From contig CADCPV010000142.1 of assembly GCA_902803345.1 (NCBI GenBank), positions 1 to 18,016 of the forward strand: 18,016 nucleotides of DNA. The letters run 5' to 3'. The notes below the pieces were generated by a model. It was not told where the DNA came from. It saw only the letters and a program-made list of their open reading frames with translations, and made no database searches. Below, piece by piece: positions 1 to 18,016 of the stretch (within the stretch, counting starts at the first letter, position 1; each line of letters opens with the position of its first letter). The stretch comes from an uncultured Eubacteriales bacterium (lineage in GTDB: Bacteria > Bacillota_A > Clostridia > Lachnospirales > Lachnospiraceae). The translations under genes and the position numbers were made by a program.

Positions 1-3000
1 CTCCTCATCCCCCGCCGCCTTCGCTTTCTCCAGCTGCGCGTAGGCATTTGCCAGGGTATCCGTCTCCGACTTCACAGTCACAATCAGGCTGAAGAATTCA
101 GATCCGGTGCTGCTGTTCGTCACAGTAATGATGTAGCTCAGCGAAGCGCCCGTGTAATTCCTCGGTGCATTCAGCAGAACTTCCGAAGTACCCGGTGAGA
201 AGCTTCCGCTTCCGGAACGCATCGCGCTGATGATATTCAACACATTCTGGGCTTCGCTGCGCTCGTCGTCCGTGGACTCTGCCGCAGAAAGGATCGTATT
301 CGCTTCGGTTTCGTACCGCAGCAGCGTATCCTCCGGATAATTCGTTTGGACATTAAGATCCGCGCGTCCCTTCGCCTGCGTCGCCGAATCGTAACCGTTG
401 ATCACAGCTGTGAATCCTTCGGAAGCGTCGACTCTGGGTGTAATCTTCACGCCTTCACCGGACTCAATCAGAAGGCTCTTCTGGTCGTTCTGTTTCAGGT
501 CGGTAGTTTCTTCGACTCCGCCGCTCGTATTCAGTACGCTGACTGTTCCGACAGTCTGGACTTTCTCCCAGTCTTCGATCAGTTTCTCCAGGTCATCATT
601 CTGCTTGCTGACATAGATGTCAAGCGTGAAGGAGTTTGTTGAATTTTCTTTTGCCGTTACCACAATCCGGTACTGCAGCTTACGGTCGCTGTAGTTTCTC
701 GGTGTCTGGAATACAATATCCACTGAGCTGCTGTCGTCTTCACTGGGTCCGCTGATGCTGCCCTTTCCGGAACGCATCGAATTGATCCGTTCAATCACGG
801 CCTTCGCGGCTTCGATTTCCTTCTCATCCGTAACATCCGGTCCGATCGACTGGACTGCCCGAGCATAAATCTCATCCAGTTCTTCTTCTTTGTAACTATA
901 AGTTCCCTTGGAAAGGTCTGCTTCTTCCTCGAGACCAGTCTCAGGATCGATCTGCCAGAACTTGTAGGTATAGCCCTTGGACGATCCGGATACTCTGGTG
1001 TTCAGCATGATGCGAGTTCCGGACTCAACTGTTAGTGTACCGATTTCAGGACTCTTGATCGATGCGTTGGTTCTTCTCTCTGCAGTGCTTTCAGAATCGG
1101 CCTTCACGTAGAATTCCGGCTCGGATTCCAGCGGTTCTCCGTCGGATCCGGAAAGTCGGATATTAGATACCAGTACCATATCCGCAAGGAAGACGGTCTC
1201 TTCCGATCCTTCGACAATGGTCTTGTTAATCTGTCTCGATACGGTTGCTCCGTCCAGCCCGACAGTAGCGCTCAGGCTCTCCGGCGTCCAGGAAGCAATA
1301 TCGGCGTCATTTGCATTGTACGGCTCCAGTTTGACATAACGCAGAGATTCCAGACGCGGAATCAGGATCTTCAGATGGTCTTCTTTACCGGACTGAAGTG
1401 CTTTGTCCTTAATATTGTAGGTATCCGCAGTATCCGCTTCGAGATACGGCCGGATATTGCTGATCTCATATTCCTGCTCAGAATCGTAAATGTCGTAATA
1501 ACCGATTCTTGCGCGTACCGGATCCGTCGTTCCGCTTCCGGAAGTTGTCGTATCCAGAGCTGTTTTGATATCAAGCTGTACAAGTTCCACATTGCCGATC
1601 ATATTGACGCGGGAAGGTGTCAGCGACGGCATGAATCCGTTTTCGATGTAGTATTTCCTTATAATCTCTCCTGACGGTTTCTGCGTCACAATGTAAACAT
1701 TTTCGATCGTCAGATCCAGGTTTCCGGTCTTGACGATATTCAGGCCCCTGATCTCCGACACATCTCCGAGATCGAAATCCAGTTCAAGAAGCTGACCGGG
1801 CTTCACCATCTTGTATCCGGCATCCGTCAGGTAGATATACTTACTTCTGATCTCCTGATCCGGCGCTCCGGAAGGTGTAAAGTACACCGCCACAGCCATA
1901 TCCCGGTTCTCCGCGATCAGGTCCTGAAGCGGATTATAAGAAAGCACCTGCATCATCACGCGCTGTATGCCCGGCTGGACTTTGGGTGAAGTTGTAATCG
2001 ACAGTGTACTCTTCGAATCCGCATTGACAGCACCGGTCAGGTAGTAAGTTTCAATCAGGACTCCTGAACGGACACGCTGCAGGACTCCATAACTGATTGG
2101 CGCTTTTAAAGTTCCCTTTGAAGTCGTCTTGACAGTGACACCGGTAATTGAGTCCAGATTCGTCGCGCTGATTCCGACCTTGGAGAAGACCGGCTGCCCG
2201 TCCTGATTATATGAGAAGTCCAGCTGTCCTGCGCCGGCGCCCATCGGTTCCAGCGTCATTGCATCCGTATAAATAACACTCGCATTGAGACCATAGCTCG
2301 AAGGATCGGATGCATTCTCTGCCGTCCCCGGATAAATGAACAGGTTCAGGGTGTCGTTCTTGGACTTCGGTTCCCGGTTGATTACGGGAGCCCAGCTATT
2401 GGTCTTCTCATCCGTCTTAATCGGGTTGTTCTGGAGCGAAATATCTATCTTCTGTATACCGGATGTCCCGCCGCCGTAAACCGGAATATAAGTTTCCAGC
2501 GTCGTATCATTCACCCACTGTGTAATAAAAGACAGGCCGGCGCCTTCATCATAGCGATACGAAATTTCACCGGACTTATTGATATAACGCCGTCCTTTTC
2601 CGTTAACCAGGTGCACCGATACATTGTCTATATGCCAATAGGTAACCTCATCAGCCCTCGTATACAGCGTCAGGGTGTTCAGCTTTGTGATGTCACTGAC
2701 GTTCAGGTAGAACCGGTCTGTCTTGCCTGCCCGGAAGGTGTATTCCGGATTGCTGACGGCGTAAGTCACTTTCGTCGACCTGGCTCCGACTCCGTCATCA
2801 TAGGTCCGTTCATAGGAAGATTCACGTCCGGCGTACTGGTCCATCTGATAGACTATGTCAATTCCGTCCACTGTCTGAACCTGGCTGTTCGCATCCTCAT
2901 AAGAGTAGTCCATGCTCATGCCGCCAACCAGCTGCTTGCAGTCCTCATATTCCGGTGTGCCATCTGTTGCGATTCCGGTAGTCCGTTTGTAGGCACCGGT

Positions 3001-5685
3001 TGTAATGCTGACCAGAAGTTTTGCGCTGTAGGAAGATGCTGTTACCTCATAGGTCGTAGCAATTTCCGCCGCCGTGTGGCCTTCCATACCCTTGATCGTA
3101 GAGGATTCGCCCGGATCACGGTATTCGATACCGACCCAGCCAAGCCCCTCTTCACTTGCGCCGTCGATCCTCCAGGTCGGTGTCAGTGCAGCATCGGTGT
3201 TCTGCATAACTTCTATGTATTTAATTTTCAGCTTGTCATAAATATTTCCGTTGGAGTCCTGATCATCCGGAAGGACCATTACGGCTGAAAGATCACCGTA
3301 ATCAATGACTGTCGGAATGTCAAAGTACACATCCGCGCCGGTACGGAAGGCGTCGCCGTCGATCTGCTGGTTCGCGAGAACGCAGCCGGAGGTACCTCTC
3401 TCAAAAATCAGCTGGAAGTAGAACAGGTTTGCCGAACCGCAGTCGTCGTTATTATCGGTCACCTTGTCACCCGCCACCTTGACATGAACTGTATAGTTTC
3501 TGCGTTGTTTTGTGAAGCCGAGGTCCTTCTGGGCATCCTCGTAGGTCATATTGTTGATCAGATCATTCCAGTCAACATCCTCACGATTGACGACTTGTTT
3601 GCCTTCGCTGTCAAACTGTTTCCACTCGCCGTCATCCTGCACCAGGTCACCCGGTACCCAGTCTTCACTGTTCGGATCTGCGCCGGGGTCTTCATCGGGG
3701 TCATAATCCGGGTTCGTCGCCATGTCGCCGGTAACAGCACCCGCGCTGAAACTGATCGAATGCGCGTCTACTTTTCTTGTATACTCCAGATGCGACAGGT
3801 AGCGTGCATTGGCAGGATCGTCCGGGTCTATTTCCTTACTTTTGGTTTCAGAAAAAGATGCAATACGCTGCTCATAGGACTCCACAAACTGCATCGTAAT
3901 GCCCTTCACCTGCCACTCGTCTTCGCCGCTCAATTTATACGACACCGAAGTAAAGCGCATTACATTCGGTATCGGCAGCAGAAACTGGATCTTTGCGCCC
4001 TGGCTCATGCCATAACTGTAAGCAAACTCGTCGACATTTCCGCCCCAGTAGCCATAGAACTGATTGACGTAATCCCGAACATTGAATTCCGGACTTGTTA
4101 CACTTGAACCATCGAAATTGGTATAGGTAAACTGAATCATGAGGTCATCACGGGTACCCGCATTGATGACATTGTCGGTGTAAAGTGACACAAGATAGCG
4201 CTCCTGGTTGTCCACAGGATTCAAAACCAGCTTGTCATTATAATTCTGGAGATAGAAATAGTTTTCCGTTCCAGCTGCTACACGCACACCTTCAACCGTT
4301 GAGGCGGTCGAAACCTTTACCGGATCTCCGTTAAAGCGGTAACGGACTGTCGCACCGTCAATTGCAGCCTCACACTGGCTTGCATCTTCATAGACCGCAA
4401 AACAGGTATAACGGAGTTCGTCCGTTTTAGTTGTTTGGAAACGCTCTGTTGCGGTGTCAGAGCTCGTACTCGCACTTAACCCGCACTTTGTAAGAGCTGG
4501 TTCGCCCCCGATAGTTATCGACACATTCACGATGCCCTGATAATCCGGAAGCAGAAGCGGAACTGCAATCGTATCTCCCTGCTGTGCATAGCCCGCGATA
4601 CGCGGGTCGCTGATCAGTTTGCTGAGTGATCCGATCGCGCAGGCAGCGAAAGGAACGGTAACCTCACGCACATCTCCCCAGACATCCGAATAGCGGACAG
4701 TAAGCGCAGCTGTTTCAACAAAGCCCATGTCTTTCAGTTGCGGTTTGCTGCCATTCTCATATTTACATGCCAGAGACTCAAAGCCGGCAAAAGCCTGGTC
4801 CGCAAGGTCCAATCGAAGCACGACATTTATTTTTTTCTGGGACTGATGTTTTTTTCCGGCCTGGGTGGGTCTGCCGTAAGCACTTGCCTGGCTGGCATTC
4901 ACCAGAGTGCAGTCCGCAACACCGCCCTGATCGCCGTATTTCACGACATTGAAGGTACCGCCTGTGGTTCTCCACTTGAAGTTTCCGCCGCTCTCCGACA
5001 TGGCCATATCGCAGATGACCTCGCCGGTAAAATCGATATAGCCGTATGCAGAATACCAGCCAACCATCTCGTTTTCAAGCAGCTGGTCCACGCGGTAGAT
5101 CCGGAGGCTCTGACAGGACCAGGTGGTCTCGTCAGGCGTATGCATTCCGAAGATCTGAATCTTGTCGATGCTGGTAATCGCCTCTTCGGTCTGGAACATG
5201 ATCTGGTCTGTACTGACAGAATGGAGCGCATCCACGTTTGTTATGTCAATTGGATTGAAACCAAAGATTTCCCGGGCAGACTTCATCTTTTCAGATGAAA
5301 AAGTCGCTCCCGCCTTTTCCGCGAGTTCGAATCCGTTTTCAATTGCATCCAGATGCGGCATCAGCAGAACACTTTTTTTGGATGAGCCAGCCGTATAATG
5401 TACGTTGAAATACAGGACGTTATCGGCGTTTCCGTTGTCGCGGATTGTGCCGGTGCTCACTTCCAGGATATAAAGATTCTTGCCGGTATGGGCGATTTTG
5501 GCACCCGCCGGGTAAAGGTCGCTGATTTTTTTCCAGTTCAGGTTCGCACTGGTACTGTCTGCGGCTGCAAAGGCTTCCTTCGGAAACAACGGCAAAATCA
5601 TCGCCATAAGAAGCACTGCCGCAAGGATTTTGCGGGCCAGTGCCTTCAGGCGGGTATTCTTTATTCCTGTGTCATGTCGTTTCAT
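1..5685 (-). CDS. Giant secreted surface protein, C-terminus beyond window
   Basis: An open frame of 1895 codons runs without a stop from an ATG at 5685 to the window edge, so the C-terminus is missing. GGAG lies 9 bases before the ATG. The start is 14 bp after the virB4-like stop, so it is probably the next gene of the same operon. Residues 1-40 form a signal peptide (Lys/Arg-rich start, hydrophobic core about 20-33, AFA cleavage motif at 38-40). The mature part is beta-rich and acidic. About four segments (roughly residues 70-200, 495-610, 733-855 and 886-1030) share a loose pattern resembling PLAT/LH2 domains: Tyr-X-Val-X-Val at the start, Gly/Asn/Asp-rich turns, and a Trp or Phe with V/I-X-V near the end. 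Two C-terminal tandem units (about 1553-1710 and 1740-1880) are clearly homologous. Inference: a long extracellular adhesin or fibre exported with, or displayed by, the T4SS-like machine. No catalytic motif was recognised. Confidence 0.9.
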   Translation of the reverse strand, partial: MKRHDTGIKNTRLKALARKILAAVLLMAMILPLFPKEAFAAADSTSANLNWKKISDLYPAGAKIAHTGKNLYILEVSTGTIRDNGNADNVLYFNVHYTAGSSKKSVLLMPHLDAIENGFELAEKAGATFSSEKMKSAREIFGFNPIDITNVDALHSVSTDQIMFQTEEAITSIDKIQIFGMHTPDETTWSCQSLRIYRVDQLLENEMVGWYSAYGYIDFTGEVICDMAMSESGGNFKWRTTGGTFNVVKYGDQGGVADCTLVNASQASAYGRPTQAGKKHQSQKKINVVLRLDLADQAFAGFESLACKYENGSKPQLKDMGFVETAALTVRYSDVWGDVREVTVPFAACAIGSLSKLISDPRIAGYAQQGDTIAVPLLLPDYQGIVNVSITIGGEPALTKCGLSASTSSDTATERFQTTKTDELRYTCFAVYEDASQCEAAIDGATVRYRFNGDPVKVSTASTVEGVRVAAGTENYFYLQNYNDKLVLNPVDNQERYLVSLYTDNVINAGTRDDLMIQFTYTNFDGSSVTSPEFNVRDYVNQFYGYWGGNVDEFAYSYGMSQGAKIQFLLPIPNVMRFTSVSYKLSGEDEWQVKGITMQFVESYEQRIASFSETKSKEIDPDDPANARYLSHLEYTRKVDAHSISFSAGAVTGDMATNPDYDPDEDPGADPNSEDWVPGDLVQDDGEWKQFDSEGKQVVNREDVDWNDLINNMTYEDAQKDLGFTKQRRNYTVHVKVAGDKVTDNNDDCGSANLFYFQLIFERGTSGCVLANQQIDGDAFRTGADVYFDIPTVIDYGDLSAVMVLPDDQDSNGNIYDKLKIKYIEVMQNTDAALTPTWRIDGASEEGLGWVGIEYRDPGESSTIKGMEGHTAAEIATTYEVTASSYSAKLLVSITTGAYKRTTGIATDGTPEYEDCKQLVGGMSMDYSYEDANSQVQTVDGIDIVYQMDQYAGRESSYERTYDDGVGARSTKVTYAVSNPEYTFRAGKTDRFYLNVSDITKLNTLTLYTRADEVTYWHIDNVSVHLVNGKGRRYINKSGEISYRYDEGAGLSFITQWVNDTTLETYIPVYGGGTSGIQKIDISLQNNPIKTDEKTNSWAPVINREPKSKNDTLNLFIYPGTAENASDPSSYGLNASVIYTDAMTLEPMGAGAGQLDFSYNQDGQPVFSKVGISATNLDSITGVTVKTTSKGTLKAPISYGVLQRVRSGVLIETYYLTGAVNADSKSTLSITTSPKVQPGIQRVMMQVLSYNPLQDLIAENRDMAVAVYFTPSGAPDQEIRSKYIYLTDAGYKMVKPGQLLELDFDLGDVSEIRGLNIVKTGNLDLTIENVYIVTQKPSGEIIRKYYIENGFMPSLTPSRVNMIGNVELVQLDIKTALDTTTSGSGTTDPVRARIGYYDIYDSEQEYEISNIRPYLEADTADTYNIKDKALQSGKEDHLKILIPRLESLRYVKLEPYNANDADIASWTPESLSATVGLDGATVSRQINKTIVEGSEETVFLADMVLVSNIRLSGSDGEPLESEPEFYVKADSESTAERRTNASIKSPEIGTLTVESGTRIMLNTRVSGSSKGYTYKFWQIDPETGLEEEADLSKGTYSYKEEELDEIYARAVQSIGPDVTDEKEIEAAKAVIERINSMRSGKGSISGPSEDDSSSVDIVFQTPRNYSDRKLQYRIVVTAKENSTNSFTLDIYVSKQNDDLEKLIEDWEKVQTVGTVSVLNTSGGVEETTDLKQNDQKSLLIESGEGVKITPRVDASEGFTAVINGYDSATQAKGRADLNVQTNYPEDTLLRYETEANTILSAAESTDDERSEAQNVLNIISAMRSGSGSFSPGTSEVLLNAPRNYTGASLSYIITVTNSSTGSEFFSLIVTVKSETDTLANAYAQLEKAKAAGDEE
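49..468 (-). repeat. Internal protein repeat unit B of the giant surface protein
   Basis: The unit covers about residues 1740-1880. It starts with IESGEGVKITPRV, passes through an acidic helical stretch and MRSGSGSFS, and ends with APRNYTGASLSYIITVT and an IVTVKS strand. It matches unit A at 583-1029. The MRSG anchor residues are 1822 and 1637, exactly 185 residues (555 bp) apart. The DNA is still identical over 14 bases around the MRSG codons (211-224 against 766-779). Further units may follow beyond the left edge. Confidence 0.8.
583..1029 (-). repeat. Internal protein repeat unit A of the giant surface protein
   Basis: The unit covers about residues 1553-1710. It starts with VESGTRIMLNTRV, has an acidic helix ending in INSMRSGKGSIS, then TPRNYSDRKLQYRIVVTA and a DIYVSK strand. 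The same order of motifs recurs in unit B at 49-468. A serine/aspartate-rich loop after GSISGP is longer here than in unit B. The alternation of strands and one helix suggests a folded extracellular domain, not a simple low-complexity repeat. Confidence 0.8.
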
Positions 5686-9691: not shown

Positions 9692-11983
9692 TTAAAAGTT
9701 ACGGTTTCGGCCGGCGCTGAAGGATCCTGCCCTTCTTCTCACGGGCGGCGGGTTATTTCCCTGCGGCGGCGGATTGTTGCCCTGCTGGTTGTTGCCCTGG
9801 TTGTTGTTGCCCTGCGGCGGATTGTTGCCAAGGTTGCGGTTTCCTGCCGGCTGACGGAAGCCCGGACCATTCGGTCCCTGTCCGTTCTGGGCGGGCGGCT
9901 GGCCCTGACCCTGGCCTTGGCCACCGCCCTGACCGCCTCCGCCCTGACCGCCGCCATTATCATCCAGCGGCTCATTGAAGCCGAAGCGGTTTCTCAGGTT
10001 CTGAGCGCCGGCGCCGGGCTGGTTCATACGGGCATTTTCATCGCCTCCGCCTCTTCTATACCGCTCCGGAAGCTGCGGCGGAACGAAGTCGTTGTTGTTC
10101 CGGTTGTTGTTCTGGTTCTGATTATTATTCTGGTTCTGGTTATTATTGTTGGGGTTCTGGTTGTTGGGGTTCTGGTTATTATCGTTATTATTGTTATTAT
10201 TGTTGTTCCCGTTGTTTGGCTCAAGCCACTGTCTGTCATCCGGATGCTTGTCGAGATAGTCCTTCTGGTACTTTGCTGCGGAAATCTTATCCTTCAGCTG
10301 CTTCTCGTTTCTCGCCTGCTCACCGCCGGTACCGAGCTTGCTCCACCACTCTTTCGCCCTTTTTAAGGGCGTTGTAATCGTGTTGGTCAAAGGCTTTGCG
10401 GCAAATCCAACAACACCGAGCGCCTTGCCGCCGACATACTTGCCGGCACCGAGCGCGGCCTTGCCGACCCCGATTGCGGAGCCGATGGCCTTTCCGGCGG
10501 AGGAACTCATATCACCGGCCTGAATCGACTGCCAGCCTGCACTGTCCGCAAGAATACCGGTCAGAAGGCCTGTGGCCTTTTTCGCGACCTCGAAACCGCC
10601 GTAAACCAGGACAAACTTCGCGAACATATTCATGTATTTGGAGTTCTCAAAGAGCACGAGTTCCGGGTCCATGACGATCGGCAGATAAACATCCAGAAGC
10701 CGCATCGCGATGATGGTGCCGAATACGCTGAGTGCCTGAATCAGGAAAGCAGTCGACCACTGTTTGAACTTCCCGCCCTGATCCAGAGGCGCCGCCGCGA
10801 TAATCGGCGGGGCGATAATATACAGGAAGATCATATTGAAGATTCGGGCCACACAGTTCATGATAATAACGACAAGGTCGAAAATGCATGCAACCGCCAT
10901 CATCCAGACAAGAATGTAGTCCGTCTTGAAGCCGATTTCAAAGTCCTGCTGTACGACATCAATGTCGTAAATGGTCTTTCCGTTCTCATGGTAGTACGGC
11001 CCTCGGAGCGCGTCGTCTACGGACGGTTTTTCATTGTAGACCGGGTTCTTTGCTGCGCTCAGGGTACCCATCAGGAAAACCATGCGGTCAAGATGGAACT
11101 TTTCGTTGGAAGTATATTTCTTAGATGCTTCCGGAACCGGTGTTACAATCTTATTCTGCTGCAGGTAATTCATCGCATAGGTGATGGCTTCAACGATATC
11201 CTCATCATATTTGTCAACGGGCACTTCGTTTCTGAGGTCATGGGACTTTGCGATCTTTGAGAGTACCGACTGCCAGGATTCCTTTACGTTCCCATCCTTG
11301 TCTGTTTCATAATAATCGTAGTCGAAAACATGAGACACCTGCAGGAAATACATATCGGAACGAATCGCATTGTAACAGGAATTCATATTGTAGCGGTTGT
11401 TTGACGAATTCACGACCGAGTAGTTCCCGATCGTGAGCAGCACCCTTCCCATGGCCGAGTACTCCTCATCTGTGAAAACCTTTTTGTCCGGCTGATCCAG
11501 CTCCTTATCATTATTGAAAATCCAGTTCACCTGCTGCATCAGGACATTGGTGCTGTAGATCACAACATTCATGATCAGCGTCAGGCCGACGATAATAACG
11601 ATGCTTCGGACTGCCGCGGTTATGATCTGTCCGAGAGAACGCTGTTCCCGGTCAGAGATGTCGAACATCTTCTTCACAACCGCCCAGATTGTAAAGCCAA
11701 AGGTCAGGGCTATGCCAATCATGGCCATCGCCCAGTAGATATTGCTGATGACCTTGTTGTTGAAAAAGACATTGATCAGGTAGTCATGATCCCCCTTGTA
11801 CAGGATTTCCTCCTGTCCGGAGAAAACCTCGAATAACTGGTACAGGATATTGATCAGCTGACACAATGCCCGCTCGAGATAATAGAATAGTTTAAATAAT
11901 GTGGCGTTCAGGATTGATTCCAGAACCGACTGTATGCCGTCTCCGAAAATGTCTCCAAAGCCTTCCCACAATGTATCTAACAA
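9692..11983 (-). CDS. VirB6/TrbL-like polytopic T4SS membrane protein with Asn/Gln/Gly/Pro-rich tail
   Basis: This 763-aa protein is a likely inner-membrane channel component of the type IV secretion machine. Hydrophobic segments lie at about 80-103, 120-146, 355-378, 380-400, 411-435 and 452-470, with a large polar domain (about 150-350) between the first and second clusters. The cluster with APPIIAAAPLDQGGKFKQW at about 391-409 is the typical TrbL/VirB6-like core, followed by a Gly/Ala-rich amphipathic stretch (480-530). From about 589 on, the protein is almost entirely Asn, Gln, Gly, Pro and Arg, with runs of NNNN and repeated QGNNPPP, ending in Arg-rich VRRRAGSFSAGRNRNF. The start is TTG, with AGGA seven bases upstream; no in-frame ATG precedes codon 86. 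The gene lies 42 bp after the Ig-like gene and precedes the virB4-like gene. Assignment rests on topology and context, as sequence identity in this family is low. Confidence 0.8.
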   Translation of the reverse strand: MLDTLWEGFGDIFGDGIQSVLESILNATLFKLFYYLERALCQLINILYQLFEVFSGQEEILYKGDHDYLINVFFNNKVISNIYWAMAMIGIALTFGFTIWAVVKKMFDISDREQRSLGQIITAAVRSIVIIVGLTLIMNVVIYSTNVLMQQVNWIFNNDKELDQPDKKVFTDEEYSAMGRVLLTIGNYSVVNSSNNRYNMNSCYNAIRSDMYFLQVSHVFDYDYYETDKDGNVKESWQSVLSKIAKSHDLRNEVPVDKYDEDIVEAITYAMNYLQQNKIVTPVPEASKKYTSNEKFHLDRMVFLMGTLSAAKNPVYNEKPSVDDALRGPYYHENGKTIYDIDVVQQDFEIGFKTDYILVWMMAVACIFDLVVIIMNCVARIFNMIFLYIIAPPIIAAAPLDQGGKFKQWSTAFLIQALSVFGTIIAMRLLDVYLPIVMDPELVLFENSKYMNMFAKFVLVYGGFEVAKKATGLLTGILADSAGWQSIQAGDMSSSAGKAIGSAIGVGKAALGAGKYVGGKALGVVGFAAKPLTNTITTPLKRAKEWWSKLGTGGEQARNEKQLKDKISAAKYQKDYLDKHPDDRQWLEPNNGNNNNNNNNDNNQNPNNQNPNNNNQNQNNNQNQNNNRNNNDFVPPQLPERYRRGGGDENARMNQPGAGAQNLRNRFGFNEPLDDNGGGQGGGGQGGGQGQGQGQPPAQNGQGPNGPGFRQPAGNRNLGNNPPQGNNNQGNNQQGNNPPPQGNNPPPVRRRAGSFSAGRNRNF

Positions 11984-12025: not shown

Positions 12026-13036
12026 TTAACCTATCTTCAGACTCTTTCTTCTGATCAGCACATATATGCCGATGCCGATCACGAGAAGTGCTGCAACAAG
12101 AACAAAAAGGATGCTGCTGACATTGAAATACATCATGATCCGGTACTGATACTCCGTCATATTGCCGGCCGCATCATAATCCTGGATCTTATACAGGCCC
12201 GAATCTTTCAAAGTATAGACCCCTTCACTGTCAGCCCGGGCGTTTACTTTCGCGCCGTCCCGCGTCACCACAACGCTTCCGCCTTCCTCGACGCCGGTGA
12301 ATTCCAATGCGGAACGCACCTGATTCTCTTCATCGATCTTTCCTGAGAACTGCAGTTCCGGCGGCGTCCGGTCAATTGTCACCGTCAGGGTATAGACCTT
12401 CTCGGAAGCCGAACACATATAACTCAGGAAATACTCACCCTCTGCCGCAAGGTCCGTACCGAAACGGGTGTAATAGTAACCCGATCCGTCCAGTTCTGCG
12501 CCTGTCATATAGAAGCCTTCGGGCACTTTGAAATGCTGCAGGCCGTTCGTGGTCTTCCCGACAATGGTGACAGAGAAAAGCCGTGTCATATCGGAGCCCG
12601 CCTGAGTCGAAATCACATACTCTCCGGGATTCTTCAGGGTCTGGACCTTGCCGCTGAGCTGATTCCCGTCCTGATGTACGACGATGCTCGTATCCGATGC
12701 GGCATAAATCGTAACGGGCTCGGAGGTGACCATTCCGTCTGCCGCGGAGCTCCGCACTTCGCTCTGACCATTGTTGATCGGATAGACAAAACTCCTCGTG
12801 TTTTTGTCATAATACATGGTTTCGGAAAGCTTCACACGGCCGCTGTCCGCCTCCTGCTCCTCCCGGACCGGTTCATTTGTGTCGGAATCCAGCGGACCGC
12901 TGTAGGTGAATTCGTCATCCGTATCCCCCGCAGCAAAAACCGCGGCAGACATACCCGAACATGCCAACGCAAGGAACAGTACTCCCGACGCAGCGAGTAA
13001 AACGAGGTTTTTTCGAACAGATTTCAGCTTATGCAT
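12026..13036 (-). CDS. Exported membrane-anchored protein with Ig-like repeats
   Basis: The 336-aa protein starts at the ATG at 13036, which has AAAGGA five bases upstream. A GTG start at 13087 would add 17 non-signal residues and overlap the previous gene, so it is rejected. Residues 1-35 are a signal peptide (KLKSVRKN, hydrophobic core, VFA). A polar acidic linker follows. About three beta-sandwich-like segments come next, at roughly 100-160, 165-220 and 221-300; the last starts DRTPPELQFSG and ends YDAAGNMTEYQYRI, typical of bacterial Ig-like folds. A single membrane helix at about 306-327 is followed by RRKSLKIG, giving a type I topology with most of the protein outside. No sortase motif is seen. 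Its place between the beta-helix-like protein and the virB6-like protein suggests an accessory or anchoring role in the secretion machine, but the precise function is unknown. Confidence 0.85.
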   Translation of the reverse strand: MHKLKSVRKNLVLLAASGVLFLALACSGMSAAVFAAGDTDDEFTYSGPLDSDTNEPVREEQEADSGRVKLSETMYYDKNTRSFVYPINNGQSEVRSSAADGMVTSEPVTIYAASDTSIVVHQDGNQLSGKVQTLKNPGEYVISTQAGSDMTRLFSVTIVGKTTNGLQHFKVPEGFYMTGAELDGSGYYYTRFGTDLAAEGEYFLSYMCSASEKVYTLTVTIDRTPPELQFSGKIDEENQVRSALEFTGVEEGGSVVVTRDGAKVNARADSEGVYTLKDSGLYKIQDYDAAGNMTEYQYRIMMYFNVSSILFVLVAALLVIGIGIYVLIRRKSLKIG

Positions 13037-13077
13037 TCCGATCCTTTCGTTTCTGTGTTCAAATGGTTCTTGACGGA

Positions 13078-14979
13078 TTATTTCCACCAGAAGCCGTTCG
13101 TCCAGGAGTTGTCCTCCTCTGCGTCTATTTTCTTCGTATCGTTAATTACGGTTTGGATTGTATAGTAATAATCCGCTTTCGGCGTGTTGCCCGTGTAGTA
13201 ATTATACGTAGAATAACCGGTTTTGTATGTATATACCCGATCCTTCCCTTTTCCGTAAATGCCATTCATTGCAATAACCGAATTGGAGGCGCCCTGAATC
13301 CTGCCAAGGCCTGGGTAACTGAGAGCGCCGTTTTTCACCGAAATATCCGCCGCCGTCAGCGTATAGCCACCGTCTATAATATCATAGCCAATCCCAATCA
13401 GGCTGTCGTCTCCGCGGTTCTCAATTGTATAACTGTTCTTGACGGTCAGATTCACTGTGAGGATCGCGCCGTAATTGACCACCTGGGCGCTTGATCCGAG
13501 CTGGAGTCCGCCGATACCGCCGCAATGCAGCTTGCAGCCAGGCATGACAACAATCGTGCCGTCGCACTTTATTTCACCGGCGGTCTCATTCTTGTCGCTG
13601 TTATAGGTTGCGAGGATGCCCTTAACGTCATAGCCATCGGCGTCAGTCTTATCCATGATTATCAGGGTGCCGCCCTTCTTGACCTTGATGGTGCCGTTAT
13701 TCGTAACCCAGCCGGAAATCACAAGGACACCGCCGTCTTCTACTGTAATTGTCCTGTTTTTATTGATGCCGACCGGTCCGTCCAGATTCGTCGTCTGTCC
13801 GTTCTGAACAGTAAAATCTCCCTTCACGAAGCTCATCGGCATCGTCGTGGCGTAGGCAAGCTGGAAAGCCCAGCTGGTATTGTCCATGCCGTTGTACTCA
13901 TTAATATAGTTCTTGCTGACGCTGAAGTCAGCTTTTCCCGTGCCCTTTCCTGTCCATCCATGGGCACCGAAACCTTTGTCACTGGTGTGGTACAGCTCCA
14001 TATGGCACTTCCAGGATTTCAGCGCATCATTGAGAATTCCATGGCCGGTTTTCATCCACCAGCTGTCGCTTTCCGCATCTTCTTTCCGGTCCAGCGTAAC
14101 GCCCTCCTGGCGGAAGGTATACCAGCCGTCCTTTTCAGTTCGGACATCCCAGGCCCGGTCCTTAAGAGCAGAGGTATAGGTCCCGGAGCCATCGGAATAG
14201 ACGTATTTTTTCGAATACTTCTTGTTCTGGATGAATTCATTCCGGTCTGACTCATAGGTATCCAGAATCCAGTCGAAACTTTTCCAGTTGTATATGTCGC
14301 GCCCCATGAAATCCTCTACCATATCATTGTAGCAGGAAAGCATCGAAGTCATAAACACCTGTTTGTTGTTCGCATTTCCGTGATTGATTTCGATCGCGTA
14401 GTAGGATTCAGCTTCGCTCATCTTATCGCCGGCCGCAGCAACAAAGTAAGGAACGTTCGGACAGGAAAAGCTGATCGCCACACCGTACTGATGCAGTGCC
14501 GGCAGATTCAGTGGGAGACTGGACGCCGGTTTATAACCGAACTGTGTCCAGAAATGCAGATATCTTGCTTTATAACCGCCTTCATGCTTTTCATTGGTAT
14601 CATCATAGTGCTTTTCGGCGCGCATACCTTCTTCTTTATGCTTTTCGATCAGGCCTTCCAGCGTATAGTTTTTTACCTCTACAGAACGGATTTTTCCGCC
14701 GGAATTCCCGGTGCCGAGGTCAAGATACTGGGCTCCGTTGTCCCAGTACATGATCACAGGCCAGGCACTCCCGTTCACGGTCATCGGCGGCTTGCCCTTG
14801 TGCCATAAATAGACAGTCTTTGACTCCATAGAGTTTGCGATGTTCTGAAATTCTGAATCGTCAATCGTATAGTCCGCGAATACATTCGTCAGCGGAAAGG
14901 CTGTTAATAGTATGATAATCAGCGCCGCGGATGCCGCGAGGCGGCGAAGCTTGCGGCGCTTCGTTGTTTTCATGTTCAT
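13078..14979 (-). CDS. Secreted protein with beta-helix-like C-terminal half
   Basis: The 633-aa protein starts at the ATG at 14979, preceded by AGGAGAG at eight bases. The frame remains open to 15033, but that extension lies partly in a dispersed repeat and is not signal-like. Residues 1-35 form a signal peptide (MKTTKRRKLRR, hydrophobic core, VFA). Residues 36-380 are a globular domain rich in Tyr and Trp with no family recognised. From about 384 to 555, short strands alternate with turns in the pattern T-I-X-V-X-X-G-G-X-L-X-I (for example GTIKVKKGGTLIIMD and GTIVVMPGCKLHCGG), as in right-handed parallel beta-helices of pectate-lyase or adhesin type. The end is Tyr-rich and ends in TNGFWWK. 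There is no membrane anchor or LPXTG motif. It lies 41 bp before the Ig-like gene. Inference: an exported surface or adhesion factor working with the T4SS; enzymatic activity on glycans cannot be excluded. Confidence 0.85.
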   Translation of the reverse strand: MNMKTTKRRKLRRLAASAALIIILLTAFPLTNVFADYTIDDSEFQNIANSMESKTVYLWHKGKPPMTVNGSAWPVIMYWDNGAQYLDLGTGNSGGKIRSVEVKNYTLEGLIEKHKEEGMRAEKHYDDTNEKHEGGYKARYLHFWTQFGYKPASSLPLNLPALHQYGVAISFSCPNVPYFVAAAGDKMSEAESYYAIEINHGNANNKQVFMTSMLSCYNDMVEDFMGRDIYNWKSFDWILDTYESDRNEFIQNKKYSKKYVYSDGSGTYTSALKDRAWDVRTEKDGWYTFRQEGVTLDRKEDAESDSWWMKTGHGILNDALKSWKCHMELYHTSDKGFGAHGWTGKGTGKADFSVSKNYINEYNGMDNTSWAFQLAYATTMPMSFVKGDFTVQNGQTTNLDGPVGINKNRTITVEDGGVLVISGWVTNNGTIKVKKGGTLIIMDKTDADGYDVKGILATYNSDKNETAGEIKCDGTIVVMPGCKLHCGGIGGLQLGSSAQVVNYGAILTVNLTVKNSYTIENRGDDSLIGIGYDIIDGGYTLTAADISVKNGALSYPGLGRIQGASNSVIAMNGIYGKGKDRVYTYKTGYSTYNYYTGNTPKADYYYTIQTVINDTKKIDAEEDNSWTNGFWWK

Positions 14980-15025
14980 GTAGGATTCTCTCCTGTGCTG
15001 TTGTCGTAACCAGTGATTCGTGAGC

Positions 15026-15141
15026 CACCTCATCCGGCCCTTCGGGCCATCTTTCCCTCGAGGGGAAGGCTTTGTAAAGGGCCGGGGGTTAACCGGCTTC
15101 CCCTTGAGGGGAAGCTGTCAGCGAAGCTGACTGATAAGGTG
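15026..15141. mobile_element. 116-bp hairpin-rich MITE-like dispersed repeat
   Basis: The ends CACCTCATC (15026-15034) and GATAAGGTG (15133-15141) are inverted repeats matching at 8 of 9 positions. Inside are several perfect or near-perfect hairpins: GGCCC/GGGCC (15036-15048), the palindrome CCCTCGAGGG (15055-15064), GCCGG/CCGGC (15081-15097), CTTCCCC/GGGGAAG (15097-15114) and GTCAGC/GCTGAC (15117-15131). TGAG occurs on both sides (15021-15024 and 15145-15148), possibly a short target duplication. It has no coding capacity. Very similar elements are familiar to me from many Clostridia genomes, but that is memory and was not searched. It sits 22 bp after the pilin stop and may act as a transcript-processing or attenuation site. 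Confidence 0.7.
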
Positions 15142-15163
15142 CTATGAGTTGTTTTTTGTTCCT

Positions 15164-15451
15164 TTACTGCTGCGGAATTACTTCCTTGCCGGCGAGGTCG
15201 TTGACCCACTGTCCAAGCTTCGGCATCATCAGTGTAAGTGCCAGAATCAGAACGAAAATCAGGACAAAGCCGATAATAGCATTCTTCAGATGCTGTTTCG
15301 CTTTTTCACGATCCTGCGGCTCTTCTGCCTTGGCGAACTTTACGCCCAGAATTACGCAGAAAATCGTTCCTGCTGCGCCGACAATACCAAGAAGCGGCGG
15401 AAGAAGACTCTGGATTAACTCGATTACCGGATTGGCTACGCTATCAAACAT
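15164..15451 (-). CDS. VirB2/TrbC-like pilin, two membrane helices
   Basis: The small 95-aa hydrophobic protein has two membrane helices, about residues 18-38 and 59-77. They are joined by a short charged loop (KFAKAEEPQDREKAKQHLKNAIIG). This topology and the basic loop are typical of VirB2/TrbC-type pilin-like proteins of Gram-positive T4SSs. In that family the subunits form the pilus or the channel-associated multimer in the membrane. No cleavable signal peptide is obvious, unlike Gram-negative VirB2. The start ATG has a very strong AAAGGAGG site eight bases upstream, consistent with high expression of a structural subunit. It is the first gene after the double promoter, and the hairpin-rich repeat follows its stop codon. 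The family is too short and divergent for firm assignment without a profile search, but its position ahead of virB6- and virB4-like genes supports the call. Confidence 0.77.
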   Translation of the reverse strand: MFDSVANPVIELIQSLLPPLLGIVGAAGTIFCVILGVKFAKAEEPQDREKAKQHLKNAIIGFVLIFVLILALTLMMPKLGQWVNDLAGKEVIPQQ

Positions 15452-15529
15452 AACCCTTTCCTCCTTTTAAAAAATTATTTATGGCATACGGCGCAAAAAC
15501 CGTTTTTCCCCTGTTTCGCAACCGATGAT
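15452..15529 (-). promoter_or_regulatory. Untranslated leader of the pilin/T4SS operon
   Basis: The leader would be about 78 nt if transcription starts near 15529, seven bases after the proximal -10 box. It holds a near-palindrome AAAAACGGTTTTT (minus strand, around 15497-15509) and an A/T-rich stretch directly before the strong AAAGGAGG ribosome binding site. No riboswitch class was recognised. Confidence 0.45.
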
Positions 15530-15535
15530 GCGTGT

Positions 15536-15569
15536 ATTATACTGTACCCTGTCCAACAGATGTCCAACA
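15536..15569 (-). promoter_or_regulatory. Promoter P2 with paired 11-bp direct repeats (SARP-type layout)
   Basis: On the minus strand, TGTTGGACA occurs at 15569-15561 and again at 15558-15550, an 11-bp period. Eight bases (GGGTACAG) then separate the second copy from a perfect -10 box TATAAT at 15541-15536. The nearest -35-like hexamer, TGGACA, lies inside the distal repeat and is 19 bp from the -10, a poor spacing typical of activator-dependent promoters. A/T-rich DNA lies just upstream. It would start transcription near 15529 for the pilin/T4SS operon. Confidence 0.78.
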
Positions 15570-15608
15570 GATTTAATATTTTTTCGTTGTTTTTCATCTG
15601 ACAGGGCC

Positions 15609-15642
15609 AGTATAACAGGCGATGTCCAACAGATGTCCAACA
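15609..15642 (-). promoter_or_regulatory. Promoter P1 with paired 11-bp direct repeats (SARP-type layout)
   Basis: On the minus strand, TGTTGGACA occurs at 15642-15634 and 15631-15623, again with an 11-bp period. Eight bases (TCGCCTGT) separate the second copy from TATACT at 15614-15609, which differs from the -10 consensus at one base. The whole unit is a copy of the P2 architecture shifted by exactly 73 bp, about seven helical turns. It begins 32 bp after the response-regulator stop and reads toward the pilin gene. Confidence 0.75.
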
Positions 15643-15674
15643 AGAAAACACTATTTTTCAAAAAAATGATTATT

Positions 15675-16487
15675 TTACTCCAGCCTCTTCCGCTGCAGAC
15701 GGTCCATGTAGGCCTCGGTGAGGCTGGCCCAGGAATAGGAGCTCATGTATTCGCCGCGGTAGGCATTCACAGCCGCGATGTCCCCTGCGAAGAAATGGTA
15801 CAGATCGCAGTCCAGAATCTCCGAACGGATCCGAAGCGAGCCGCTCTGCATCTCCAAAAGTTCGCTGATGCCATAGTCTTTCAAAGTCTGGCGAAGGGCA
15901 CGCACCACGACATCCATCTGCTTCTGCATTGCCCGGTCATAAAATTCGTCTTCCCAGAGCACCGCGAAGGCCTCCGCACGCGTTACGGAGGATCCCTGCC
16001 TGTCCACGAGATAAGCCATCAGTTCTTTGGCCTTGCTTCGGCTGAAGACAACCGCCTTGCCGTCAACGAAGAGATCGAAATTGCCGAAAGTCTTGGCGGA
16101 AATATGCGCTGTGCTCTCCGTGGAGCTGCTCCGCGCCGCGAGCGCGTGACGGATTTCCTGTTCCAGTTTGTCTTTGCTCGTCGGCTTCATCAGGTATCCG
16201 GAGGCGTGCAGCTGGAAAGCGTCCAGCGCGTACTGCGCATAGCCTGTCAGGAAAATGATCTGGGTGTCCGGGCGGAGTTCCTTGATCCGCATTGCGAGCG
16301 TCAGCCCGTCCATGTCCGGCATGTCGATGTCCAGAAGCGCGATGTCCGCATTGTTGTCCTCGAGGTACTCGAGGGCCTCCGTTGCCGAGTTGAAGCCGAG
16401 GGCTTCGTCGGTCTCCGGGAGGTCTTTGACCATCGAGAGGGTCAGCTGCAGGATCAGAGCTTCGTCGTCTACACAGATGATTTTCAT
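15675..16487 (-). CDS. Response regulator: receiver domain plus SARP/BTAD-like DNA-binding domain
   Basis: The 270-aa protein is the likely phosphorylation-controlled transcription factor paired with the adjacent kinase. Residues 1-118 are a receiver domain with the acidic pocket D7/D8, phosphoacceptor D53 (LLDIDMPD), switch residue T81 and conserved K101-P102. Residues 131-225 form an OmpR-like winged helix of SARP type, starting KTFGNFDLFVDGKAVVFSRSKAKELMAYLV. Residues 226-270 match only the first part of a BTAD (YRGEYMSSYSWASLTEAYMDRL); a full BTAD is about 150 aa. LytS-type kinases more often pair with LytTR regulators, so this combination is notable. The ATG at 16487 is 3 bp from the kinase stop, with AGGAGG eight bases upstream inside the kinase end. 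SARPs bind direct repeats with 11-bp period overlapping the -35 region; such repeats occur just downstream, at 15550-15569 and 15623-15642. Inference: it activates the T4SS operon. Confidence 0.92.
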   Translation of the reverse strand: MKIICVDDEALILQLTLSMVKDLPETDEALGFNSATEALEYLEDNNADIALLDIDMPDMDGLTLAMRIKELRPDTQIIFLTGYAQYALDAFQLHASGYLMKPTSKDKLEQEIRHALAARSSSTESTAHISAKTFGNFDLFVDGKAVVFSRSKAKELMAYLVDRQGSSVTRAEAFAVLWEDEFYDRAMQKQMDVVVRALRQTLKDYGISELLEMQSGSLRIRSEILDCDLYHFFAGDIAAVNAYRGEYMSSYSWASLTEAYMDRLQRKRLE

Positions 16488-16490
16488 GAA

Positions 16491-17774
16491 TTATTCCTCC
16501 TTTTCCTCCGGAATCCGTATGGTAATCTTTGTTCCTTCGTCAATCCGGCTGTCCACATGGAAAGAGCCGAGCAGCATAGTTTCTACGCGGTCGCGGACGT
16601 TCCGAAGTCCGATATGCGAGCGCTCCTTCAGGGCGGATTCTTCTTCGGGGTCTTTCCGCTGCAGGGCGGCTTCCGGGTCGAAACCCTTGCCGTTATCCTC
16701 AATTACGAGGACATGCTCTTTTCCTTCGCGGCGTGTGCTGATCCGCACAATTCCTTCTTTCCGAACGCGCACGCCGTGGCGGATCGCATTCTCCACAAGC
16801 GGCTGGATCGTCAGTGCCGGCACCGAAAACTCCGTATCCTCGATATCGTACTCAATGCGGATCCGCGGGAAACGGACCTGTTCGATATCCGTATAAACCT
16901 GTGTATGCTCCAGTTCCTTTTCCAGCGGAATCAGACTCGGCTGGGAGAGAGAATCGATATTCTGCCGCAGGTAAATCGCGAATTTCTCCGTGATTTCCGA
17001 GGCTTTTTCCGGGTCCACGCGGCAGAGCGCCTGGATCGTGGTCAGTGTATTGTACAAAAAATGCGGCTGGATCTGCGAAATCATGATCCGAATCCGCTGT
17101 TCCGCCTGCAGCGCCTGCTCGTGCTCTCTGGAGAACTGCAGGTGCAGCCACAGGTAATAGAATACGCAGCTCGACACCACCGATCCCGTGAGGAATGTAA
17201 CGATAAAGTCCTGCCCGACGTTCATGTCCAGTCCCACGCCCACAACTACGATTACAGCCGCGACAATCGGCAGGATACTCTCGGATTTTTTGACCCGGCG
17301 GTATTCGAGAATGGACAGGAGCAGCAGCCATAACAGGAGCACAAAGCTGATAATATGGCAGGTATAGCCGAGAGGCCCGCGCACAAAGCGGTTGCTTTCG
17401 CTGATTGTGAAGCAGATGCTTGTGAAAAGGGCAGTCATATGAACCCCGGCATTGAAGCCGACAAGGGTCCACATCGGCCACTGCATTCCGTCCGGCCGCA
17501 CCAGGCGGATAAAAAGCACCAGGATCACCGGCCGGATCGCATAGCCGTAAATGGAGGTCATGATCCTCAGGTACCGGTAGCGGCCAGCCTGCATTGTGAG
17601 ATAATTCAGGTAATTCTGCAGCACCAGGCTCGCAACCAGCGTGATGATGATAATAAAGATTCCCTGTCTCCGGTGTGTGATGAAGGGGTCCACGAGCACC
17701 GCAAAGACCAGCCCTAAGAGCTGCAGCAGGAGCGGCAGCAGGCAGAGGACTATGGTTTGCGTTTCGTGGGACAT
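16491..17774 (-). CDS. LytS-type sensor histidine kinase, six membrane helices
   Basis: This 427-aa protein is a membrane sensor kinase that would phosphorylate the adjacent response regulator. The first 200 or so residues hold about six hydrophobic helices with short loops, so the signal is probably sensed in or at the membrane; no PAS or extracellular domain is seen. A short coiled segment (REHEQALQAEQRIRIMISQ) leads to the HisKA_7TM/His_kinase-type motif QPHFLYN, with phospho-acceptor H238. The HATPase domain follows with N-box PLVENAIRHGV (N329) and G1 box EDNGKGFD near residue 360. The chosen ATG has AGAGGTGA four to six bases upstream; a TTG at 17810 would overlap the deacetylase gene. 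The gene starts 10 bp after the deacetylase stop, whose TAG forms part of the ribosome binding site, so translation of the two may be coupled. Confidence 0.93.
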   Translation of the reverse strand: MSHETQTIVLCLLPLLLQLLGLVFAVLVDPFITHRRQGIFIIIITLVASLVLQNYLNYLTMQAGRYRYLRIMTSIYGYAIRPVILVLFIRLVRPDGMQWPMWTLVGFNAGVHMTALFTSICFTISESNRFVRGPLGYTCHIISFVLLLWLLLLSILEYRRVKKSESILPIVAAVIVVVGVGLDMNVGQDFIVTFLTGSVVSSCVFYYLWLHLQFSREHEQALQAEQRIRIMISQIQPHFLYNTLTTIQALCRVDPEKASEITEKFAIYLRQNIDSLSQPSLIPLEKELEHTQVYTDIEQVRFPRIRIEYDIEDTEFSVPALTIQPLVENAIRHGVRVRKEGIVRISTRREGKEHVLVIEDNGKGFDPEAALQRKDPEEESALKERSHIGLRNVRDRVETMLLGSFHVDSRIDEGTKITIRIPEEKEE

Positions 17775-17784
17775 ACATTCACCT

Positions 17785-18016
17785 CTAATTCTGCACTGCC
17801 TGGTGCACAAGCGGGGTCGAAGCGGTTATCGGCAAGAAAGTATAGCCGTTCGCAAGCCCCCAGGAAAGAATTTCCCGGACAGCCGCGACGGAATTCGGCC
17901 AGATGTCATGCTGCAGCACAATCGAGACGTCGTGCGCCTGAATACCGTTGATCACGTTCTGCGCGATGGTTGAAGCCGGGCTCTGGCCGCCGTCCGCGTC
18001 GCCGGATACCACGTTC
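17785..18016 (-). CDS. Polysaccharide deacetylase (NodB family), C-terminal fragment only
   Basis: Only the last 77 residues are in the window; the frame is open to the right edge, so the true start is outside. NVVSGDADGG followed by IVLQHDIWPNSVAAVREILSWGLANGYTFLPI is the typical end of NodB-homology deacetylases: the LQHD histidine corresponds to the conserved H-D of the last catalytic motif, followed by the helix and GYTF strand. The family removes acetyl groups from peptidoglycan or other N-acetyl-glycans, outside the cell. The stop is 10 bp from the kinase start, so it is in the same operon. Inference: cell-wall tailoring coordinated with assembly of an envelope-spanning machine. Confidence 0.82.
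   Translation of the reverse strand, partial: NVVSGDADGGQSPASTIAQNVINGIQAHDVSIVLQHDIWPNSVAAVREILSWGLANGYTFLPITASTPLVHQAVQN

Follow-up and report, generated by a model that had tools for sequence, protein, structure and literature searches.

Introduction

The SARPs are activators which are widespread in actinomycetes and drive antibiotic synthesis there, and their promoters, as set out in the promoter passages of PMC10936776, follow a common rule: direct repeats are spaced by 11 or 22 bp, and 8 bp separate the final one from the -10 element. For AfsR from Streptomyces coelicolor (PDB 8hvr, 8k60) the same passages describe 11-bp repeats at the afsS promoter with 8 bp to the -10 and a poor -35 which is overlapped, the start of helix 1 touching the backbone at the first repeat bases and helix 3 lying in the groove, and they give AfsR NOD and TPR domains as well as a BTA domain of seven helices. 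The AfsR repeat itself reads CGTT(T/C)ATCGNN in the section of PMC10972967 dealing with it. EmbR from Mycobacterium tuberculosis (PDB 2fez, 2ff4) carries an extra FHA domain and a longer helical part than the protein described below. It is not known to be a response regulator. The PhoB/OmpR regulators join a receiver to a winged helix and bind tandem repeats (pho-box-like) at 11-bp steps. In SARPs an all-helical BTA domain follows the winged helix, and they activate by contacts with region 4 of sigma, the beta flap and alphaCTD.

Here we compare with these systems a locus in which two promoters of the SARP kind stand before a type IV secretion system (T4SS) operon. SARP promoter geometry and, in the model, the SARP fold were found in two-component systems of cultured and uncultured rumen Clostridia; the SARP-type promoters would be served here by response regulators outside their usual home, and the box code can be traced across genomes. 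A literature search on SARP- or BTAD-type regulators in Clostridia or Firmicutes and on rumen T4SS effectors did not show the system among the matches listed, which is weak evidence of absence as few subscription journals are covered, and the matches listed for the string TGTTGGACA all look unrelated.

Results and Discussion

The window, meaning the whole analysed stretch of 18,016 nucleotides, carries on its minus strand a kinase gene, a regulator gene, two promoters and the genes for a pilin, a 651-aa protein, a 353-aa protein, VirB6, VirB4 and a very large protein in this order (Table 1). A first-pass annotation had described four copies of one half-site as two pairs with an 11-bp step and 8 bp to a -10, and exact matching confirmed this for both pairs: positions 15536-15642 read TGTTGGACA-TC-TGTTGGACA-N8-TATACT and then TGTTGGACA-TC-TGTTGGACA-N8-TATAAT on the minus strand, all four exact copies thus lying on the operon's strand. 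None of 200 dinucleotide-preserving shuffles of the window gave an exact 9-mer repeat at 11 bp with TAnnnT at 8 bp, of which the window itself contains two. The hexamer 17 bp upstream is GACATC at both P1 and P2, leaving no usable -35, and a consensus promoter scan of 15100-18016 gave two promoters, both on the plus strand and none on the operon strand. Transcription is predicted to start near 15602 (P1) and 15529 (P2). The pilin gene starts about 85 bp past the proximal -10, behind AAAAGGAGGAAAGGG. Further along this leader, downstream of P2 at 15470-15500 of the minus strand, stands ACGGTTTT..CCGTATGC, which is kept in the window and its closest relatives L001 and L052 and might possibly form a small hairpin; Rfam gave no family at threshold over 15300-15800.

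Table 1: Positions of promoter elements and genes in the window.
Feature	Positions	Strand	Basis
P1 (distal promoter) upstream half-site TGTTGGACA	15634..15642	-	exact match; aligned in L001
P1 (distal promoter) downstream half-site TGTTGGACA	15623..15631	-	exact match; aligned in L001
P1 -10 element TATACT	15609..15614	-	8 bp from second half-site
P2 (proximal promoter) upstream half-site TGTTGGACA	15561..15569	-	exact match; invariant in window, L001 and L052
P2 (proximal promoter) downstream half-site TGTTGGACA	15550..15558	-	exact match; invariant in window, L001 and L052
P2 -10 element TATAAT	15536..15541	-	8 bp from second half-site
Membrane histidine kinase, PF06580 + HATPase_c	16491..17810	-	Pfam; relative adjoins regulator in most of 55 loci
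Response regulator, 270 aa: receiver, SARP-type winged helix, truncated BTA-like helices	15675..16487	-	PF00072, PF00486; AF2 models; EmbR/AfsR fold match
T4SS pilin-like protein, first gene behind P1/P2	15164..15451	-	PF18895; NCBIfam Mbov_0395 family
651-aa probably exported protein, T4SS operon member	13078..15033	-	same position in L001 and L052
353-aa probably membrane-anchored protein, T4SS operon member	12026..13087	-	same position in L001 and L052; relative in L230
VirB6/TrbL-like membrane protein	9692..11983	-	NCBIfam MMCAP2_0566 and Mbov_0396 ICE families
VirB4-type ATPase, 1305 aa	5700..9617	-	PF19044; NCBIfam VirB4_plasma 555 bits, slightly below cut-off 590
Very large probably exported protein, cut by window end	1..5685	-	open ORF; homologues at same position in L219 and L220

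We propose, with a probability of roughly 0.88, that a receiver-SARP phosphorylated by the adjoining kinase activates the T4SS operon and other boxed promoters through the paired boxes. The regulator would join its receiver to a winged helix of the SARP type, followed by the opening helices of a BTA domain, and the membrane kinase, which is likely its partner and which we take to be LytS/YehU-like, would phosphorylate it on D53, as family knowledge and conservation suggest. Two regulator molecules would then occupy the direct repeats next to each other, covering about -40 to -21 in place of the absent -35, and the bound regulator would hold region 4 of sigma-A and the flap of RNA polymerase on the -10 element 8 bp downstream. 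In this way the T4SS operon would be switched on from two tandem promoters, together with the other boxed promoters of the same cell.

A genome scan for paired boxes at 11-bp steps, suggested by the first-pass annotation as the way to the regulon, gave 147 sites in 23 of the 24 regulator genomes when one mismatch was allowed, with up to 22 sites in one genome and none for the reversed pattern. The one genome without such a canonical pair (G019) has a pair with two mismatches before its regulator. As to the target, a T4SS operon had been named; the boxes do stand before the T4SS operon of the window, but the same box precedes many unrelated genes and regulators of this type have such genes as neighbours too, and the first reading is right at its core and too narrow in its target. 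The T4SS as a general target of the regulator family was rejected, as VirB6 occurs only in G001 and G023 among the 24 regulator genomes. Close VirB4 relatives occur only in G001, G023 and G232 among 25 genomes, and remote ones in four more.

For the 147 sites 60 flanks were fetched, all from G001, G007, G015, G016, G020 and G023, and the first ORFs behind the boxes were called by a simple ribosome-site rule, some of them being doubtful. A hydrophobic N-terminus was found in 7/8 and 5/13 of these ORFs in the Butyrivibrio genomes G020 and G007, in 4/4 in G016 and 0/1 in G015, and in 1/17 and 1/12 in the T4SS genomes G001 and G023. Among the boxed targets are a HAD-type hydrolase, a leucine-rich protein, a nucleotidyl transferase and a histidine phosphatase, and in several loci the kinase or the regulator itself lies behind a box. 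Ten mostly large boxed proteins from G001, G023 and G007 gave no match at the Pfam cut-off, and an iterative profile seeded with the five members of one large-protein family did not reach the other families, smaller families existing as well. One of the large-protein families has a member in G007, a genome without the VirB6 found in the T4SS genomes. Our guess, drawn from co-regulation, is that the large boxed proteins might be T4SS substrates, and for the T4SS genomes the regulon gives a short list of candidate secreted proteins. Two loci (L007:4911-5096 and L019:4475-4744) have boxes before small genes near two-component genes. We take their products to look like double-glycine leader peptides, and they might be secreted peptides.

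The T4SS itself could be the plain conjugation system of an integrative element, so that the regulator would control DNA transfer, a question which concerns the target and not the promoter. Pilin, VirB4, VirB6 and VirD4 lie in one operon as in ICE-type systems, and the window pilin and VirB6 as well as the VirD4 of L219 score above the cut-offs of NCBIfam ICE conjugation families (Mbov_0395/0396 and CD1115-type); the window ends before the position that VirD4 takes in L219. The G001 operon differs from these systems by additional genes for a STAS protein, an anti-sigma-type kinase and a SpoIIE-type phosphatase. Against conjugation, the T4SS genomes G001 and G023, both MAGs, have no relaxase match to PF03432 (0/2) or PF02486 (0/2), the two families searched, whereas PF03432 is present in G007 and G002. 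Moreover, first ORFs of at least 400 aa that lack a hydrophobic segment make up 9/17 in G001 and 10/12 in G023, compared with 3/13 in G007 and 0/13 in the rest. We give conjugation slightly less than an even chance.

Further regions of the closest relatives' genomes (L219 and L220) encode the large protein together with a membrane protein and one that is VirD4-like, and in both genomes another box stands before a gene for 158/167 aa and a very long gene. Beyond the VirD4-like protein G001 encodes a 201-aa protein, the STAS protein, the anti-sigma-type kinase and the SpoIIE-type phosphatase, Pfam having been run on L219 for these regions. The last three form a partner-switch set beside the T4SS in G001 and G232 (L219:13175-15669; L230:3215-3532 and 15140-17127). 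G232 is the third T4SS carrier (VirB4 67%). In this genome a TACTGGACA-TT-TATTGGACA box with TATCAT at 8 bp heads the VirD4-to-VirB4 genes, a second box lies before a 526-aa ORF and is followed at a distance of about 3 kb by a relative of the G001 protein L123 (E 5.6e-61), and a third immediately precedes a regulator that has Y150. G232 further has a pilin gene which lies behind a QKY-type regulator and a TGAGGGACA-TGATGGACA box that lacks a -10 at 8 bp. In the window, VirB4, presumably with a PrgI-like N-terminus, ends in a long acidic low-complexity tail (5700-6500), VirB6 in an N/Q/G/P-rich tail (9692-10300), and the 651-aa protein matches no Pfam family above the cut-off.

To place the regulator that we propose as a receiver-SARP, we compared its domains and its model with the known families. 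It has a receiver with the phospho-acceptor Asp (PF00072), an OmpR-type winged-helix DNA-binding domain (ODB) as in SARPs (PF00486) and a short helical extension, and D7, D8, D53, T81 and K101 are invariant across 26 aligned regulators. In the AF2 models about 50 more residues with three helices follow the wing, so that the winged helix is not the C-terminal end, unlike in OmpR/PhoB regulators. EmbR is the closest fold with Z 14.7 over 144 residues, tied with AfsR, and is also found by a profile search against PDB sequences (E 0.0056). The model matches AfsR residues 21-183, and past the wing its alignment extends to residue 183 of AfsR and residue 175 of EmbR, which would fit a BTA domain cut to about three helices. 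Compared to AfsR the receiver stands in front and the BTA part would stop early. Most of the BTA helices with which AfsR contacts sigma and alphaCTD lie beyond the end of this match, so that the polymerase contacts would have to differ in part. The AfsR repeat, in the version given in that section of PMC10972967, shares GTT with TGTTGGACA.

The neighbouring gene had been annotated as a receiver-winged helix-BTAD remnant regulator, of which the receiver, the winged helix and the model fold held up, but Pfam BTAD was matched by 0/38 members at E up to 1. This, together with Trans_reg_C matches in 33/38 members, would also suit an ordinary OmpR/PhoB-type response regulator, whose class-wide tandem binding at 11-bp steps would agree with the SARPs in the 8-bp spacing by coincidence. 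The best matches of the full-length model are OmpR-class regulators as well, the receiver dominating there, and the NCBIfam matches listed (25 of 98) are response-regulator and receiver models. The fold match of PhoB/OmpR regulators, on the other hand, covers only about 94 residues, the winged helix, and we consider this explanation unlikely. Two relatives of 428 aa (P0003 and P0004) align over 97% of the 270-aa regulator and are longer by about 160 residues.

The conservation of the boxes was followed from close to distant relatives. L001 and L052, both titled uncultured Lachnospiraceae, have the same gene order as the window from the kinase to VirB4. Aligning the leader region across relatives had been proposed as a check, and in the three orthologous leaders the repeats, -10 and 8-bp spacing of P2 are kept in 3/3, P1 being present in 2/3 and absent from L052; the boxes and -10 elements are invariant and most of the 8-bp spacer is variable. 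A genome scan for the regulator confirmed 149 relatives, the best 80 of which were returned, and 55 loci were examined (L001-L056 minus the truncated L049), most of them with a kinase relative beside the regulator. Loss of the repeats or the spacing where the regulator is kept, which would have spoken against the first reading, was mostly not seen: an 11-bp pair lies within about 3.4 kb of the regulator in 45/55 loci, behind the regulator, before the kinase or regulator, or divergent, whereas the stretch examined holds no such pair in 10/55 (L009, L018, L025, L036, L042, L046, L047, L053, L054, L056).

When half-site thresholds were applied and a -10-like hexamer was required at 3 to 14 bp, there were 60 cases at 8 bp, none at 7 or 9 bp and 45 at other distances, the latter often being a second reading of the same box. 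In a cleaner count with boxes chosen by half-site match alone, 58 of 61 distinct boxes have TAnnnT at 8 bp, and the SARP promoter rule of 11- or 22-bp repeats with 8 bp to the -10, to which the promoters had been assigned, is thus followed exactly in the window (2/2) and kept in its relatives. The base counts of the 61 boxes show a sigma-A-like -10 preceded by a partial TGn (T 35, G 27 of 61). L038, L039 and L040 also have boxes downstream of the regulator; these lack a -10 at 8 bp, and about 18 bp separate them from the closest -10-like hexamer. A regulator bound over -40 to -21 might also act as a repressor by blocking the polymerase, as the box overlaps the place of the -35. This is very improbable, since no -35 able to work unaided is present and the fixed distance to the -10 fits a polymerase contact better than simple blocking, and we infer activation rather than repression.

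In order to see how far box and regulator occur together we used a sample of 200 genomes from the family to which G007 belongs, taken out of a larger group. Exact pairs were found in G007, G023, G026, G170 and G183, all among the eight genomes with a regulator of at least 51% identity, and in 0/192 remaining genomes, 56 of which carry a more distant regulator relative (E below 1e-40). The association has a hypergeometric p of about 2e-8, calculated by hand, the cut having been placed at 51% once the gap down to 44% identity was known. The other close regulators are those of G158, which has a one-mismatch pair by its regulator, and of G065 and G104, which have R150 and the canonical helix, yet no exact pair in this search without mismatches. 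Regulators of 39-44% identity (L179-L200, 1.5-kb flanks) have other pairs of the same geometry in 4/22 loci (L181, L183, L197, L198), a count without shuffle control.

The half-sites fall into families, TGTTATACA, TACTGGACA, CTTTGGACA, GGGTGGACA, TGATGGACA and others, in which both copies mostly change together. Among 37 genomes searched with up to one mismatch, TGTTATACA pairs occur in 5/5 genomes with a Q(K/N)SF helix and in 0/32 others. One of the five is that of L050, where the regulator frame stops inside the recognition helix after QKSF and the box is intact, which may reflect an assembly error or a decayed gene. Pairs of TACTGGACA occur only in G226, G227, G228 and G232, the adjoining regulator lacking R150 in all four. 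TGA(T/G)GGACA pairs were found in 5/7 genomes with a QKY helix, as half-changed pairs in 6 canonical genomes and in 0/24 of the remaining, the reversed control giving one match, in G235. Canonical TGTTGGACA pairs are present in 0/13 non-canonical genomes; the fourteenth, G018, has both regulator types and both boxes, as has G011. These patterns suggest that changes in the box and in the regulator went hand in hand during evolution.

For a covariation table 52 regulators were used (43 of the 55 loci, the window and 8 others), thinned to 41 at 85% identity and leaving out the 10 loci without a pair, L028 with mixed boxes and L051 with a partial regulator; half-sites were assigned by hand and not blind. 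R150 is the top regulator column for half-site base 2, with 35 cases of R and G, 0 of R without G, 1 of G without R and 5 of neither (p 8e-6), and D192 for base 6, with 35, 0, 0 and 6 (p 2e-7), both p values being uncorrected for about 270 columns and nine bases. In the model R150 lies directly before helix 1 and D192 within helix 185-204, both columns belonging to the DNA-binding domain. The best column for base 3 is A173, with Q190 sixth (p 0.018), several scattered columns are tied for base 7, and no column stood out for bases 4, 5, 8 and 9. A tree built without the DNA-binding columns gave three independent contrasts for R150 and base 2 (two or three in the same way), two for D192 and base 6 (both in the same way) and three for Y190 and A at base 3 (two in the same way), none of them opposite. 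These changes are consistent with a link between residue and base and too few for significance. A single residue explaining each box was ruled out by L205, which has a canonical-like helix yet a TACTGGACA box, by L023, which keeps G at base 2 without R150, and by L046 and L047 (G234 and G235), which have a Y190 helix and no TGAKGGACA pair genome-wide.

That another protein reads the boxes beside an incidental two-component neighbourhood is likewise very improbable: many boxes lie far from a regulator gene and binding by the regulator itself is what we infer, but box presence follows the regulator over the 200 genomes, each type of box tends to come with its own type of regulator, and the best-scoring columns for bases 2 and 6 lie in the DNA-binding domain.

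Returning to the receiver-SARP, a wider view is tentative, and we would put it at somewhat less than an even bet. The receiver-SARPs may be a large Clostridial family whose DNA code can be read and can evolve (R150 for base 2, D192 for base 6, with 190 for base 3 as the weakest), and in a branch of rumen Lachnospiraceae this code would run a relaxase-less, protein-exporting T4SS with the large signal-less boxed proteins as substrates, the set being kept despite the change in box type. The natural box variants offer ready-made material for tests of DNA recognition by a winged helix, and as box and spacing can be read from the sequence alone, regulons of uncultured bacteria become predictable.

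Viral contigs gave five pattern matches and no confirmed regulator relative. L044, from a MAG titled Coriobacteriaceae, has the regulator with a canonical box, and either the system reaches beyond Clostridia or this MAG may be mixed. In the plasmid collection there were two short matches, one of which lies over a kinase gene of a Butyrivibrio plasmid.
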